36,577 nucleotides of DNA from Bdellovibrionia bacterium (GTDB lineage Bacteria; Bdellovibrionota; Bdellovibrionia; Bdellovibrionales; UBA1609), in NCBI GenBank assembly GCA_030432925.1, contig JAUILT010000023.1, positions 1 to 36,577 on the forward strand. Reading direction: 5' to 3'. The notes under the pieces were generated by a model. The model saw only the letters and a program-made list of their open reading frames with translations, was not told where the DNA came from and made no database searches. The translations under genes and the position numbers were made by a program. Of this stretch, positions 9,649-36,577 are shown in pieces. Numbering within the stretch: the stretch's first letter is position 1; every line of letters begins with the position of its first letter.

Positions 9649-10159
9649 AAGTAAATACAGGGTAAGTATTCCCACAGCCACGAATCTCCTGGGGGGGGGC
9701 CACATTCTGTTGGATACTCAGTGATGAACCCGTGACAGTTATATTCAATGGAGTGATCACATCCGTTTCCACAAAATAGGGGTCAATAAAAGCCGAAACC
9801 ATGCCTTCTGCCTGACGGTCATTCAGTGGACCACAATTATAGCCTCGTCCACCATTGGCCCCTGAACGAGCCAATGAGCCATAATATCCACCCTCAACAA
9901 AACTGATAGGCCCCTCATACCACACACGACATTCCACTCCGGCCTCGCGGATATTCACGTAAACCTCCAGAGTCCGTGTTGCTGAATTTCTTTCTGGCTC
10001 AAAACCACCCACTGTCATATCCACAGTCAAACCATACCTGGTAAAAGCAGCGTTGGCACATCCAAGATCCATCACCATATAACTCCCAAGTAATGGCTCT
10101 ATATTCGCTTGAGCAAAAGCTCCAAAAAAAATATATATAGCAAGTGTTAGTTTCTTCAT
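9623..10159 (-). CDS. Secreted protein of unknown family, downstream of TonB-dependent receptor
   Basis: 178 residues with a clear Sec signal peptide (MKKLTLAIYIFFGAFAQA, cleavage before NIEP). The mature part is short, beta-rich and Gly-rich, with four Cys that could form two disulfides, as expected for a periplasmic or secreted domain. I do not recognise the family. It starts 21 bp after the receptor stop with a strong AAGGAGA ribosome binding site, so the two form an operon and may work together, for example as a ligand-binding partner. A run of nine C (minus strand, 9691-9699) encodes the Ala-Pro-Pro near the C-terminus. A slip there would replace about the last 20-25 residues. The 3' end overlaps the opposite lipoprotein gene by 26 bp. 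Confidence 0.75.
   Translation of the reverse strand: MKKLTLAIYIFFGAFAQANIEPLLGSYMVMDLGCANAAFTRYGLTVDMTVGGFEPERNSATRTLEVYVNIREAGVECRVWYEGPISFVEGGYYGSLARSGANGGRGYNCGPLNDRQAEGMVSAFIDPYFVETDVITPLNITVTGSSLSIQQNVAPPQEIRGCGNTYPVFTFTALRESK
9691..9699 (-). repeat. C9 homopolymer tract within a coding sequence
   Basis: Nine consecutive G on the plus strand (C on the coding strand) near the 3' end of the secreted-protein gene. It is the longest G/C homopolymer I noticed in the window. Such tracts are prone to slipped-strand changes in length. Confidence 0.9.
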
Positions 10160-28769: not shown

Positions 28770-29336
28770 ATGAATCACTTCGGAATCATTTTACGAAAAA
28801 TCCGCACCGACAATGCGCTCACTCTTAAGGCCGCATCCACACTCATTCAGCGAAGCACAGGCTGGCTCAGTGAAGTGGAGTCAGGCAAACCCTCGGCCAA
28901 GTGTTCGCAAGCTGAGTTTGAGCGAATCATCGCAGCCTATGGGGTCAACTATGATCCCAGAAACTATTCCCACCTTTACCGTTCCTCGTCAGAGTCAGTC
29001 TCAGACAATGAAGTTGCGCTCGATGGGGCAGTACTCAAATACCTACGAACCAAAAATGGGTCATCGCTCGAAGATGCTGCTGCCAAAAACGGGTTTTCCA
29101 AGAGCTATTTATCAAAATTGGAAAATGGGTCAAAGCCCATTTCAAGAAAAATGCGAGATCAGCTATTGAAATCCTATGGCTACAAGCCCTCAAGTTTTAA
29201 AAATTTTTCCACTAAAGACAAAAGAAGTGAAAAGGTTCCTGTGACGTACAAACTCAACGTTTTGCTGCACGCCATGACCCAAAAACAGGTCACTCAACTT
29301 TTTCAATACGCCAACCAAATCATTCAAGAAAACTAA
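28770..29336 (+). CDS. Tandem XRE-type helix-turn-helix regulator
   Basis: 188 residues with two Cro/C1-type HTH domains in tandem: residues about 4-60 (FGIILRKIRTDNALTLKAAS, then STGWLSEVESGKPSA) and about 88-146 (VLKYLRTKNGSSLEDAAAKN, then FSKSYLSKLENGSKPI). The C-terminal tail (LHAMTQKQVTQLFQYANQII) may dimerise. I chose the ATG at 28770 because CGGAGG lies 6 bases before it. The GTG- or TTG-type extension back to 28686 has no ribosome binding site. It is likely a DNA-binding regulator of the accessory region and is followed 14 bp later by a 53-residue peptide gene. The 276 bases upstream (28494-28769) hold no other gene that I can see. Confidence 0.85.
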   Translation: MNHFGIILRKIRTDNALTLKAASTLIQRSTGWLSEVESGKPSAKCSQAEFERIIAAYGVNYDPRNYSHLYRSSSESVSDNEVALDGAVLKYLRTKNGSSLEDAAAKNGFSKSYLSKLENGSKPISRKMRDQLLKSYGYKPSSFKNFSTKDKRSEKVPVTYKLNVLLHAMTQKQVTQLFQYANQIIQEN

Positions 29337-29350
29337 AAAAGGAGACTGAT

Positions 29351-29512
29351 ATGCGTTTTATCGCTGATTTAATCATTGCCCTTACTTTTTGGTCCTTTAC
29401 GGCCTATTCAACCGTGGAAATCTATCAATTTTTTCGCGAGGCTTCAATAAAACAGGTGTCTCGCGGTTTGAATTCTACTGTGAAGTTCACAGATGCTTTG
29501 ATTTCAGAGTAA
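29351..29512 (+). CDS. Small membrane or exported peptide (53 residues)
   Basis: A short open frame with a strong ribosome binding site (AAGGAGA, 7 bases before the ATG) and a stop just before a clear terminator. The N-terminus is hydrophobic (MRFIADLIIALTFWSFTAYS), then amphipathic and mildly basic (FFREASIKQVSRGLNSTVKF). It could be a single-helix membrane peptide or an exported peptide. I do not recognise it. It lies 14 bp after the tandem-HTH gene, so the two are one operon. A regulator-peptide pair suggests a toxin-like, signalling or modulating role, but nothing in the sequence settles that. Confidence 0.6.
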   Translation: MRFIADLIIALTFWSFTAYSTVEIYQFFREASIKQVSRGLNSTVKFTDALISE

Positions 29513-29518
29513 TATTTC

Positions 29519-29549
29519 AAGCTGACCCATTATTGGGTCAGCTTTTTTT
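29519..29549 (+). terminator. Terminator of the HTH-peptide operon, containing TGACCCA-N4-TGGGTCA
   Basis: AAGCTGACCCA (29519-29529), loop TTAT, TGGGTCAGCTT (29534-29544), then a run of T. It is a strong intrinsic terminator. Its core (29523-29540) is identical in arms and spacing to the palindromes upstream of the sigma-54 operon at 33382-33544. Confidence 0.9.
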
Positions 29550-29553
29550 ACAT

Positions 29554-32172: not shown

Positions 32173-33240
32173 ATGGCACAAGTGATCGACTTTCATTCTG
32201 CTCTTGCGAAAGCTGAAAAATTCGGAACGACAATAAAGTGCTCCAAGAAAAGATTGCTTCTAGGGAATGGGTTTAGCATCGGTTGTATGCAAAAGTTCAA
32301 TTACCCTGCTCTCTATGAAAAAGCCGTGGAACTAGGGCTCCCTCAGCACATTCAAAAGGTCTTCGATTATTTTGGGCAATGCAATTTTGAAGCTGTATTG
32401 AAAGCACTCGATGATGGTCATTGGCTGGCTGAACTGTATGACCTCAAAAGTTCCGATAAATGTATGGCCAGAGATTATGAAGCGGTAAAAGAGGCGTTGG
32501 CAAAATCAATTAGCGAAGTTCATCCCGACAAGACCTCTGACATTGAGACAACCAAGTATAGCAATTGCTACTCATTCATTCAGAATTTCGATGACATATA
32601 TACTTTAAATTATGACCTTTTGCTCTATTGGACATCTCTCAGTCAGGAGCCATTTCAATTTGAAGATTATTTTACTAAATACAAGTCCACCCCAAGTGGT
32701 CTATGTGAGTTTTCTCCATCAGGGGGAAGTAACAAAAAGCACATTTATTTTTTGCATGGGGCACTTCATTTGTTCACGGAGGGTGGGCAAGTCTATAAAC
32801 GAATTTGGAACGATGTTGGGATAAGTCTCATTGAGCAAATCCGAAATGGTCTGAAAAACAAAGAATATCCGTTGGTAGTTGCCGAGGGTGATAACAAATC
32901 AAAATTAAAACAAATTGAATCCAGCAGCTACCTTTGGAACTGCCTCAGAAAGTTTAACGGGATCGAAGGGCAATTATTTATACATGGTCACTCTCTGGCA
33001 GACCAAGACGATCATATTTTTGATGAAATTGTAAACAACCTCAGTCTCAGAAAGATTTGGGTTGGTCTGTTTGGCGACCCCGACAGTGATGAGAACCAAA
33101 GAAAAATCCTTAAGGCAAAGGGCATGGTAAAAAAAAGGCAAGAAATTTTAGACGGTCTATCGAAGACTCCCAAAGGGAAAAAGGGAAATTTAGAGCTGGG
33201 TCTTTACCAGAGCGAATCTGCTAATGTTTGGGGAAGCTAA
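32173..33240 (+). CDS. DUF4917 family protein (SIR2-like fold)
   Basis: 355 residues, cytoplasmic. Family-like landmarks run in order: RLLLGNGFSIGC (residues 27-38), FEAVLKALDD (72-81), DIYTLNYDLLLYW (141-153), HIYFLHGALHLF (190-201), YPLVVAEGD (232-240), and LFIHGHSLADQDDHI (268-282). The GNG, TLNYD and HG motifs correspond to the nucleotide site of SIR2-like proteins. Some SIR2-like proteins in defence systems hydrolyse NAD+, so an anti-phage role is possible, but DUF4917 itself has no settled function. AGGGAGA lies just before the ATG. It stands alone, with its own weak terminator, between the protease and the sigma-54 operon. Confidence 0.8.
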   Translation: MAQVIDFHSALAKAEKFGTTIKCSKKRLLLGNGFSIGCMQKFNYPALYEKAVELGLPQHIQKVFDYFGQCNFEAVLKALDDGHWLAELYDLKSSDKCMARDYEAVKEALAKSISEVHPDKTSDIETTKYSNCYSFIQNFDDIYTLNYDLLLYWTSLSQEPFQFEDYFTKYKSTPSGLCEFSPSGGSNKKHIYFLHGALHLFTEGGQVYKRIWNDVGISLIEQIRNGLKNKEYPLVVAEGDNKSKLKQIESSSYLWNCLRKFNGIEGQLFIHGHSLADQDDHIFDEIVNNLSLRKIWVGLFGDPDSDENQRKILKAKGMVKKRQEILDGLSKTPKGKKGNLELGLYQSESANVWGS

Positions 33241-33381: not shown

Positions 33382-33399
33382 TGACCCAGAAATGGGTCA
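33382..33399. promoter_or_regulatory. Palindromic site A (TGACCCA-N4-TGGGTCA)
   Basis: A perfect palindrome with spacer GAAA, centred about 230 bases before the predicted sigma-54 transcription start. Its size and form match the upstream activator sites of NtrC-class regulators. The binder is inferred to be the regulator at 33672. Confidence 0.7.
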
Positions 33400-33423
33400 G
33401 GTTAAAAGGGGTTACAGCGGAAA

Positions 33424-33441
33424 TGGCCCACCTTTGGGTCA
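33424..33441. promoter_or_regulatory. Palindromic site B (TGGCCCA-N4-TGGGTCA)
   Basis: One mismatch from the consensus palindrome, with spacer CCTT. It lies 42 bases centre-to-centre from site A, four DNA turns, so both fall on the same face of the helix. Confidence 0.65.
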
Positions 33442-33526
33442 TTCAGAATCACGCTTTGGAAATCAAATTTTGTTTTTTGATTTCAACAACATGAAAGTCT
33501 CTTCAGAAGATAAACCCCTTTGGGAC

Positions 33527-33544
33527 TGACCCACGACTGGGTCA
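33527..33544. promoter_or_regulatory. Palindromic site C (TGACCCA-N4-TGGGTCA)
   Basis: A perfect palindrome, extended by C/G to 20 bases, with spacer CGAC. It is centred about 85 bases before the predicted transcription start, a usual distance for a sigma-54 activator site. Confidence 0.7.
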
Positions 33545-33594
33545 GTGAGTGGGAGCAAAAAGGGATCAAAGTCCAATATTTTCGAGTACAGCAC

Positions 33595-33610
33595 TGGCAC
33601 ACCCTATGCT
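33595..33610 (+). promoter_or_regulatory. Sigma-54 (-24/-12) promoter
   Basis: TGGCACACCCTATGCT against the consensus TGGCAC-N5-TTGCW, with GG and GC exactly ten bases apart. Transcription should begin near 33621, leaving a leader of about 50 bases before the regulator gene. Sites A-C upstream complete a standard enhancer-dependent promoter. Confidence 0.85.
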
Positions 33611-33671: not shown

Positions 33672-35093
33672 ATGAACTACCGAATTTTGATTGCCGACGA
33701 TAATCAAAGGGTGCTCGACAACTTCAATGAAAAGCTCACAAGCCATCTTGATATTGAACCTGTTTTCACCAACGAGGCCACCGATGTCATCAAGCTGGTG
33801 CAAGAAGACCCTTTTGAATATGCCGTTATCCTCATTGACTACCACTTTGAAAACCAAAGTCTCAATGGCGCACAGGTGGCCGAGGAGATTTTAAAAATCA
33901 ATCCAAAACTGATTGTGCTTGTCTGCACCGGAGACATGGGCCGCGAGGCACCCATTTCTTGTCTGAAGGCCGGAGTCAGTGACTTCATTCAAAAAGATGA
34001 GCCTATTAACCAAGTGATTGAAAAGATCAGACTCAATTGCAAAAAGTTTGATGAGCTAGCAAGAGTCGTTACTAACAAATCCAATAAGAACAAACAGTTT
34101 ATTGAAAACAGCTCCCTCATTAACAAAATTGGCATGATCGGTTGGTCGGATTCAATGGCTGATATTGCCAAACAAATTTTAAGCTTGAGTGAAAATGGCG
34201 GCGATAGCTCGACTGTTCTTATTCGCGGTGAATCTGGTACGGGCAAAGAACTGTTAGCCAAAGCCATTCACCACTCTTCTAGTAGAAAGCACAAACCTTT
34301 TGTCGCTCTAAACTGTGCAGCGATCCCCGAAGGACTATTGGAGTCAGAACTATTTGGACATGAAAAAGGAGCCTTCACCGGAGCTGACAGGAAAAAACTT
34401 GGAAAATTTCAAGCTGCTACTGGTGGCACCATTTTTCTCGATGAGATTGGCGAAATGCAAAAAGACCTTCAAGCAAAACTTCTCCGAGTCTTACAAGAAA
34501 AAACCATTGAGCCTGTAGGGTCCAATAAAGCCATTCCCGTTGATGTGCGCGTGGTGGCGGCTACTCATGCAGAGCTTGAAGAAAAAATTGAATCAGGTCT
34601 ATTCAGGCAGGATTTATTCTATAGGCTCAATCAAATTCCCATCTTTGTACCAGCCTTGCGGGATCGACCACAAGACGTTCACCCCCTTGTCACTCATTTC
34701 ATTGAAAAACATCCAATGGGAAAGAAAAAGCGGTTGATGTTCAAAACTCTCCAGTACCTCATAGCCTATGACTGGGATGGAAATGTCAGAGAACTTGAAA
34801 ACACCATCAATCGACTTTTAGTGATGACCCCAGGCGAAGAAATTCGACCAGAAAATTTGGATGCAAAAGTTTTCAATGCCACTAAAAAATCAGCTCGCAC
34901 ATACTCTCAGTTTAAGGATTTTCTTAAAAAAGAAATGGAAGAAAAAGAGCGTGAGTTTTTAGTTTCAAATATCAGACGGTTCCCATCAATCAGAGCCGCA
35001 GCGGAAGCCCTTGCCATTCCTAACACTTCTCTACAAAGAAAGCTCAATGAATGGGGCTACACATTTGAAGGTGAAAGAGTGGGTGGGTTGTGA
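33672..35093 (+). CDS. NtrC-class sigma-54-dependent response regulator
   Basis: 473 residues. An N-terminal receiver domain has the acidic pair Asp9/Asp10, the phosphoacceptor Asp56 (VILIDYHF) and Lys108 (FIQKDEP). The AAA+ domain has Walker A GESGTGKE, the sigma-54 contact loop GAFTGA, Walker B GGTIFLDEIGEM and the arginine-finger region FRQDLFYRLN. A C-terminal Fis-type HTH follows (SIRAAAEALAIPNTSLQRKL). All key residues are intact, so it should activate sigma-54 RNA polymerase on phosphorylation. No histidine kinase is in the window, so it is an orphan here. The start at ATG 33672 is set by GAGGAGGG upstream. A longer frame from 33549 would include the promoter itself. Sites A-C and the promoter lie directly upstream, so it probably activates its own operon. 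The stop overlaps the next gene by 4 bp. Confidence 0.96.
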   Translation: MNYRILIADDNQRVLDNFNEKLTSHLDIEPVFTNEATDVIKLVQEDPFEYAVILIDYHFENQSLNGAQVAEEILKINPKLIVLVCTGDMGREAPISCLKAGVSDFIQKDEPINQVIEKIRLNCKKFDELARVVTNKSNKNKQFIENSSLINKIGMIGWSDSMADIAKQILSLSENGGDSSTVLIRGESGTGKELLAKAIHHSSSRKHKPFVALNCAAIPEGLLESELFGHEKGAFTGADRKKLGKFQAATGGTIFLDEIGEMQKDLQAKLLRVLQEKTIEPVGSNKAIPVDVRVVAATHAELEEKIESGLFRQDLFYRLNQIPIFVPALRDRPQDVHPLVTHFIEKHPMGKKKRLMFKTLQYLIAYDWDGNVRELENTINRLLVMTPGEEIRPENLDAKVFNATKKSARTYSQFKDFLKKEMEEKEREFLVSNIRRFPSIRAAAEALAIPNTSLQRKLNEWGYTFEGERVGGL

Positions 35094-36169
35094 GTTGGCT
35101 TCAAAGAATTGAAGATATTATTGCCCCCAAAGCGATCAAATACATTGGTGGGCAAGAGCACATGGCGATCCAGCTCGACATTACCAATGCCTGCAACTTG
35201 AGGTGCGCTCATTGCTACCATTCTCATCATAAAAATAACGGTGCTCTTGATTTAGACGGTTGGTTTAATATCCTCGACCAGTATGAGGAGTTTTTAAATA
35301 AACTGAAACTCAAGCCCAGTATTGTGCTCTGTGGTGGTGAACCAACGATCAGTCCCTACCTTCTCCCCATTCTTAAGAAACTCAATGAAAAATGGGTCCG
35401 TCCACCGATTTCCATACTAACCAATGGGACAAAACTTAACGACAAGTTACTCAAGAACCTTGAGCCTTACAATATTGTATTTCAAGTTTCCCTCGACGGA
35501 CCAGATGCAAAACGGCACGATGCTGTTCGAGGGGAAGGCAACTTTGATAAGGCCGTGGCAGGGGCAAAACTCGCTGCTCAATATGGAATTAAAACTGACA
35601 TTCTAGCCGTTCTCTCTCAAAAAACGTCATCATGGATTCCAGAGTTTTTTGAAATGGCAAAAGAGCATGACTTTGCAGCTATGAATTTTACGCGCTTCAT
35701 TCCACAAGGCTACGGGGAAGACCTTAAAAACAAAGGACTTGATGACTCACTATACGGGATCGAACTGCGGGATGCCCTTATTGAAATTGTCTCACTTTCC
35801 AGAAAACACGCAATCACAACCCACAGTGATTTACCTTTATTTAATCTGATCGACCCGTCGCTTGGGCAGAATGGAAAGTTTGGTTTTCAGGGCTTAGTTG
35901 TTGACTACAAAGGAAACCTTAAAGCGTCGAGCCGCGCCAACTATGTAGTTGGAAATGTCCTTGAAGAAGGATTGCAAAATCTATTTTTTAACCACTCACT
36001 GATGAAAGATTTAAGGCATGGAAACATCAAAGGGTGCGGCGAATGTATGTATTATTCTCGCTGTGGTGGTGATCGCAACATCAGTTATGCCACAACGGGC
36101 AGTTTTTTAGAAAAAGATAAAGGATGCTGGATTGAACCAGCACAAGAAAATAAGGGGAAGATAGCATGA
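35090..36169 (+). CDS. Radical SAM protein with reduced SPASM-like C-terminus
   Basis: 359 residues. The radical SAM CxxxCxxC motif is Cys35-Cys39-Cys42 in ITNACNLRCAHCYH, binding the SAM-cleaving 4Fe-4S cluster. CGGEPT and SLDGPDAKRHDAVRG are family landmarks. The C-terminus holds Cys316, Cys319, Cys325 and Cys346 (GCGECMYYSRCGGD, later KGCW), enough for one auxiliary cluster. The first SPASM Cys region is present in outline (DYKGNLKASSRANYVVGN) but has lost its Cys residues. SPASM proteins commonly modify peptides or small proteins. It starts at a GTG overlapping the regulator stop by 4 bp, and its stop overlaps the next gene by 4 bp, so it is coupled on both sides. The next gene is the obvious substrate candidate. 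Confidence 0.93.
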   Translation: MSWLQRIEDIIAPKAIKYIGGQEHMAIQLDITNACNLRCAHCYHSHHKNNGALDLDGWFNILDQYEEFLNKLKLKPSIVLCGGEPTISPYLLPILKKLNEKWVRPPISILTNGTKLNDKLLKNLEPYNIVFQVSLDGPDAKRHDAVRGEGNFDKAVAGAKLAAQYGIKTDILAVLSQKTSSWIPEFFEMAKEHDFAAMNFTRFIPQGYGEDLKNKGLDDSLYGIELRDALIEIVSLSRKHAITTHSDLPLFNLIDPSLGQNGKFGFQGLVVDYKGNLKASSRANYVVGNVLEEGLQNLFFNHSLMKDLRHGNIKGCGECMYYSRCGGDRNISYATTGSFLEKDKGCWIEPAQENKGKIA

Positions 36170-36453: not shown

Positions 36454-36513
36454 AGCGTGTTCGGAGATTTCCACTCACTCCCTCTTAAATTACGTTTCAC
36501 GGCTTGCAAGAGT

Positions 36514-36542
36514 TTGAAAAAGTATCACACTACTCTTAATGA
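36514..36542 (+). promoter_or_regulatory. Probable sigma-70-type promoter of the next gene
   Basis: TTGAAA (36514-36519), a 17-base spacer and TAATGA (36537-36542), with transcription expected near 36549, just before the ribosome binding site AGGAG (36550-36554). It gives the downstream gene its own promoter, separate from the sigma-54 operon. Confidence 0.55.
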
Positions 36543-36560
36543 CATCATTAGGAGAACACC

Positions 36561-36577
36561 ATGGCCAATTACAAACA
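36561..36577 (+). CDS. Start of a gene cut by the window edge
   Basis: ATG at 36561 with AGGAG 6 bases upstream encodes MANYK before the sequence ends. A promoter lies just upstream. Too little is visible to assign a family. Confidence 0.55.

Follow-up and report, generated by a model that had tools for sequence, protein, structure and literature searches.

Palindromic sites before a predicted sigma-54 promoter point to an autoregulated NtrC-class operon that may also govern transfer of conjugative elements in Bdellovibrionota

The right-hand part of the window (the whole stretch of 36,577 nucleotides analysed here) carries three palindromic sites, A, B and C, a -24/-12 promoter element and the beginning of an operon headed by a response regulator gene (Table 1). 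The sequence-only reading had described three palindromes of the form TGACCCA-N4-TGGGTCA, one of them (B) with a single mismatch, with A and B 42 bp apart, C centred some 85 bp before the predicted start and a sigma-54 promoter downstream, and a pattern search bears out each of these points: the start-to-start spacings are 42 bp from A to B and 103 bp from B to C, and the -24/-12 element places the predicted transcription start of the operon at about 33621. The sites have the character of upstream activating sequences, namely repeated dyads some 80 to 250 bp upstream held in a conserved geometry, and the element has that of a sigma-54 promoter, being TGGCAC-N5-TTGC-like with GG-N10-GC and standing before the regulator gene in all 11 loci compared below. 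A second inverted repeat, GAAATCA-N12-TGATTTC at 33465-33490, lies between B and C and is kept in the window and in its paralogue C97, with a related TTTATTGATTTCAA in L058 and L065. Directly upstream of the array a DUF4917/SIR2-like protein, possibly a defence gene product, is encoded at 32173-33240 and is absent from the other loci.

Table 1. Features of the window discussed in the text
Feature	Position	Strand	Remarks
Tandem-XRE regulator gene	28770-29333
Enhancer site A, TGACCCA-N4-TGGGTCA, TGACCCAGAAATGGGTCA	33382-33399	.	0 mismatches
Enhancer site B, TGGCCCACCTTTGGGTCA	33424-33441	.	1 mismatch
Enhancer site C, promoter-proximal, TGACCCACGACTGGGTCA	33527-33544	.	0 mismatches; centre ~ -85
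Sigma-54 promoter -24/-12, TGGCAC-ACCCT-ATGC, TGGCACACCCTATGC	33595-33609	+	pattern match; kept in all 11 loci
NtrC-class response regulator (receiver, sigma-54 AAA+, Fis-type HTH), 473 aa, ATG start	33672..35093	+	Pfam
Radical SAM/SPASM-like enzyme, start overlaps regulator gene	35090..36169	+	Pfam Radical_SAM 7e-22
Small exported peptide gene, 95 aa	36166..36453	+	C-terminus cut versus 105-118 aa orthologues
Left end of probable insertion sequence; window contig stops inside	36454..36577	+	identical contig L057

The assignment of the gene at 33672 to the NtrC class, made earlier from the letters, is upheld by Pfam (Response_reg 7e-12, Sigma54_activat 6e-70), and the protein has the receiver, the AAA+ domain with GAFTGA and the C-terminal Fis-type HTH by which such enhancer-binding proteins are recognised. 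GAFTGA and the usual receiver acidic residues are visible in the regulator alignment; the HTH_50 score of 20.9 is below the cut-off of 27 and the helix aligns weakly with solved NtrC-family HTHs. No NCBIfam equivalog matches the regulator at or above cut-off. Distant relatives at L069, L072 and L073 are short regulators with a receiver and a Fis-type HTH and no sigma-54 AAA+ domain, which suggests that sigma-54 control has been acquired or given up in the history of this family.

With the radical SAM protein as query, 16 of 369 Bdellovibrionota genomes proved to contain relatives. Eleven loci, each with the regulator start and its upstream region, were compared: the window, C97 (a paralogous operon of the same genome, the two regulators being 82% identical) and nine other Bdellovibrionota loci. 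A plasmid collection yielded only distant radical SAM proteins, below 60% identity, and viral contigs only short weak matches. Where intact, the operon runs in the order regulator, radical SAM, small exported peptide, SBP_bac_5 solute-binding protein and hybrid kinase. The best NCBIfam matches of the radical SAM protein, TIGR04053 and the ACGX system, both fall far below their cut-offs. The peptide orthologues keep a signal-peptide-like N-terminus, and at their C-termini stand patterns like SGALSGIPPQ or SGAISIGGTF; radical SAM and peptide genes form a conserved pair, for which modification of the peptide is a predicted role. The kinase has a HATPase domain, a conserved HNI[KQR]S motif and, judged by eye, a receiver-like C-terminus. 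ABC transporter genes were absent beside the solute-binding protein in the listed operon neighbourhoods.

The copy in the window appears damaged. A 6-kb low-coverage contig, L057 (G220:C5, JAUICD010000083.1), belongs to a MAG assigned to another family; its radical SAM and peptide genes are identical to those of the window, which may reflect either recent transfer or mis-binning. Past the point where the window ends this contig runs into an ORF of 449 aa, a putative transposase by a weak Pfam match to a transposase domain; beyond it come the C-terminal 93 residues of the binding protein and a kinase whose start is intact. An insertion sequence has thus probably cut the end of the peptide gene and removed most of the binding-protein gene; the end of the window contig is the same sequence as in L057, consistent with a repeat-caused break. 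The hybrid kinase, present in the C97 paralogue and in relatives, is missing from the window contig. Because the insertion sequence hits the peptide and binding-protein genes, signalling by the window's copy is probably broken, but its enhancer array is sound; the C97 copy is intact, shares the recognition helix and might serve both promoters.

A chance origin of A to C is ruled out by genome counts and by shuffles. The window's own genome, 3.04 Mb in 172 contigs, has six exact copies of the 14-base palindrome and none of its reversed control, and at up to two mismatches the counts are 29 and 10, with the excess clustered in four places (the window, C97, C113 and C16). Within the 300 bp before the window's -24 box there are 3 sites against 0.03 expected, and at least three were reached in 0 of 300 shuffles. 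Across the orthologous operons the conservation concerns both sites and promoter. All 11 loci have a [TC]GGCA[CT]-N5-NTGC element at 47-92 bp upstream of the regulator start, and strict palindromes are present at ten of these promoters, with 27 sites against 0.28 expected from dinucleotide shuffles. In all ten, the window included, the distance from the start of the proximal site to the -24 box is 66-68 bp; the eleventh locus, L067, has no strict site and shows weaker palindromes, the proximal one at -65. Sites A and B, which are weaker in L060 and L067, are separated by 42-45 bp in four loci and by 85-87 bp in five, distances close to four and eight turns of the helix. In the alignment of the window with C97 the palindrome arms are kept and the N4 spacers and neighbouring bases differ: aligned with A, C97 has CGACCCA-N4-CGGGTCA, its spacer differing, and aligned with B it has CGACCCG-N4-TGGGTCA. 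Arms kept while spacers differ are as would be expected of binding sites.

The sequence of the sites follows that of the regulator. TGACC/GGTCA sites pair with a recognition helix starting IPN or MPN (window, C97, L058 and L065), TGTCC/GGACA sites with a helix starting SK or AK (L060-L064), and L059 has mixed half-sites with a helix of the IPN/MPN class. The change between lineages is symmetrical in the site and in step with an Asn-to-Lys change in the helix, at a position which probably corresponds to that of a base-contacting arginine in Fis. In a tree built from the receiver and AAA+ domains a single change separates the two site classes. Because the deciding branch is weakly supported (44/2), the covariation should be counted as one or two evolutionary events, not ten. 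This paired change supports the encoded regulator, the DNA-binding protein that every one of the 11 loci shares, as the probable binder. Autoregulation, which the earlier reading had seen as implied, gains support from the retention of the promoter and three sites across the orthologous operons; since the sites vary together with the recognition helix, control by the adjacent regulator appears the best reading.

Several of the operons adjoin conjugation genes. C97 is next to genes for TraC, TrbI, an FtsK-like coupling protein and an integrase, and relatives lie next to genes for a TrwB-type coupling protein, a VirB11-type ATPase and a relaxase. The window itself shows only a tRNA-Pro before the contig ends, and an att repeat of that tRNA-Pro end was not found elsewhere in its own genome. 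In C97, L058 and L059 a zinc-ribbon protein gene comes first among the conjugation genes, and its promoter carries a pair of sites spaced by 70-72 bp; from the second of these to GG-N10-GC is exactly 71 bp. In L063 the last site stands 69 bp before TGGCACTCTACTCGC and the zinc-ribbon gene, and looser versions are found in L060 (80 bp) and G227/L083 (88 bp). Mainly because matching sites precede GG-N10-GC at conjugation genes, we propose that the circuit controls transfer as well as itself; its most likely role there is to activate the transfer of an integrative conjugative element. We give a probability of about 0.82 to the reading that the 33672 regulator uses A, B and C as its upstream activating sites in an autoregulated sigma-54 operon that also drives transfer of the element.

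A reading that we find rather unlikely keeps the autoregulation and lets the conjugation genes be controlled otherwise, with the weaker sites near them incidental. It draws on the greater degeneracy of the conjugation-promoter sites compared with A to C and on L061, L062 and L064, where an equivalent promoter is absent in the stretch examined. It does not readily account for the near-identical spacings in three loci and the 69 bp in a fourth, nor for conjugation-promoter half-sites whose type matches the lineage. Also against it, C113 (L018) has at 9814-9981 two sites, likewise 71 bp apart, of which the second lies 82 bp before TGGCCCCAAAGTCGC, a GG-N10-GC element. This is a possible cross-controlled promoter; the mobile element that carries the pair is another one and has a recombinase gene.

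The sequence-only reading had made a link between genome copies of the palindrome and sigma-54 promoters a test of its view, and the link holds for part of the six exact ones. A, C and the proximal site of C97 are at such promoters and the C113 copy is 71 bp from the second site of the pair just described; the remaining two, at 29523 and C16:8078, are in terminator-like positions after a small-peptide gene. The first of these is a further exact palindrome in the window (29523-29540), the fourth palindrome beside the three noted before, and it forms the stem (AAGCTGACCCATTATTGGGTCAGCTTTTTTT) of an intrinsic terminator at 29513-29550. Upstream of it, at 28770-29512, are the tandem XRE-HTH gene and a gene for a 53-aa single-span membrane peptide (IKQVSRGLNSTVKFTDALISE), a pair repeated in C97, where, as in C16, a like terminator stem holds the same place (L017:6007 in C97). 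The peptide gene occurs alone, with no XRE gene, in C16 and C113, and C113:7354 is a palindrome inside the coding sequence of a homologous small membrane-peptide gene. The palindrome at 29523, its C97 and C16 counterparts and C113:7354 are not sigma-54 sites. In the window and in C97 alike a tRNA-Pro gene precedes the XRE gene by some 260-280 bp. In Bdellovibrionota genomes lacking the operon the exact palindrome is rare and mostly solitary, and a sigma-54-like element was absent nearby in 8 of 9.

That palindromes fall within and just after the XRE operon, in the window and C97, and that this gene is in the same region, might suggest that they are operators of another protein, such as the tandem-XRE regulator, which would repress or modulate the promoter. 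We hold this to be very unlikely: the XRE protein is ruled out as the common binder, since of the 11 loci only the window and C97 have its gene and the sites persist in the other nine, at a constant distance from the sigma-54 promoter and varying with the helix of the NtrC-class regulator itself. Least credible is a role of the palindromes as RNA hairpins (stems of terminators or attenuators), or an origin as dispersed repeats: the same 7-bp stem is an evident terminator at 29523 and at its C97 counterpart, where that explanation is accepted, but for A to C it is rejected, as they lie upstream of the promoter with no T-runs, lineages with a different site sequence keep symmetry and spacing, and the exact palindrome is so rare and solitary in genomes lacking the operon.

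With A to C read as activating sites of the regulator, a mechanism may be proposed from the gene content. The operon's own hybrid histidine kinase, a pairing suggested by co-location, would phosphorylate the receiver, and phosphorylated dimers would bind the palindromes and allow an AAA+ ring to assemble, which through DNA looping would open the sigma-54 RNA polymerase at 33595. The outcome would be positive autoregulation of the regulator, radical SAM, peptide, solute-binding protein and kinase. The same sites before the second GG-N10-GC promoter, in relatives and in C97, would turn the conjugation genes on for transfer of the integrative conjugative element. The modified exported peptide could be the signal, sensed by the binding protein and kinase, so that the likely function is that of an autoregulated, probably peptide-sensing switch for transfer of the element. 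More tentative, and somewhat short of even odds, is the whole relay as a Gram-negative peptide-pheromone system on Bdellovibrionota conjugative elements. Here a radical-SAM-modified exported peptide would be captured by the lone oligopeptide-type binding protein and read by the hybrid kinase, which would signal to a sigma-54 activator able to boost its own production and to induce conjugation; recognition helix and enhancer sites would have changed in concert, giving related elements codes of their own.

Among known systems NtrC, ZraR, FleQ and NtrX resemble the present regulator in having a receiver, an AAA+ domain with GAFTGA, a Fis-type HTH and palindromes upstream of -24/-12, and in autoregulation, which is probable here. 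It differs from them in its palindrome, TGACCCA-N4-TGGGTCA or TGTCCCA-N4-TGGGACA, and in having three sites with a fixed proximal position. In the LuxP/LuxQ-LuxO quorum sensing system a periplasmic binding protein and a hybrid kinase feed an NtrC-class sigma-54 regulator; in the present operon SBP_bac_5 and HATPase kinase genes follow the gene of such a regulator and may form a comparable relay, the differences being the peptide-type binding protein, the operon-encoded radical SAM enzyme and exported peptide, and the location on a conjugative element. Peptide signals control conjugation of their encoding element in ICEBs1 (Rap-Phr) and pCF10 (PrgX). A predicted peptide signal would likewise govern conjugation of its own element here; the differences on the side of the present operon are predicted extracytoplasmic sensing by binding protein and kinase, a sigma-54 output and possible radical SAM modification. 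The SHP/Rgg-RaS-RiPP systems of streptococci place a radical SAM enzyme and small peptides under peptide-type control (PMC13361665, PMC8092268). Their likeness to the present operon lies in the enzyme and the small peptide, whose role here is predicted, and the difference in two-component/sigma-54 control in place of a cytoplasmic Rgg, and in a Gram-negative host. The open-access full texts searched gave no description of the operon or of such sigma-54-controlled conjugation, and a B. bacteriovorus genome paper reports ICE-like insertions at tRNA genes in passages with no mention of the circuit (PMC3539863).

Within one conserved operon a sigma-54 activator is joined to a radical SAM/peptide pair and to a lone binding protein of the peptide type, and the paired change of site and recognition helix amounts to a natural experiment on regulator specificity. 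The Bdellovibrionota are known for their predators, and the control of horizontal transfer among them is little studied. For this group the present analysis sets out a defined binding code and a proposed circuit of conjugation control that can be tested.
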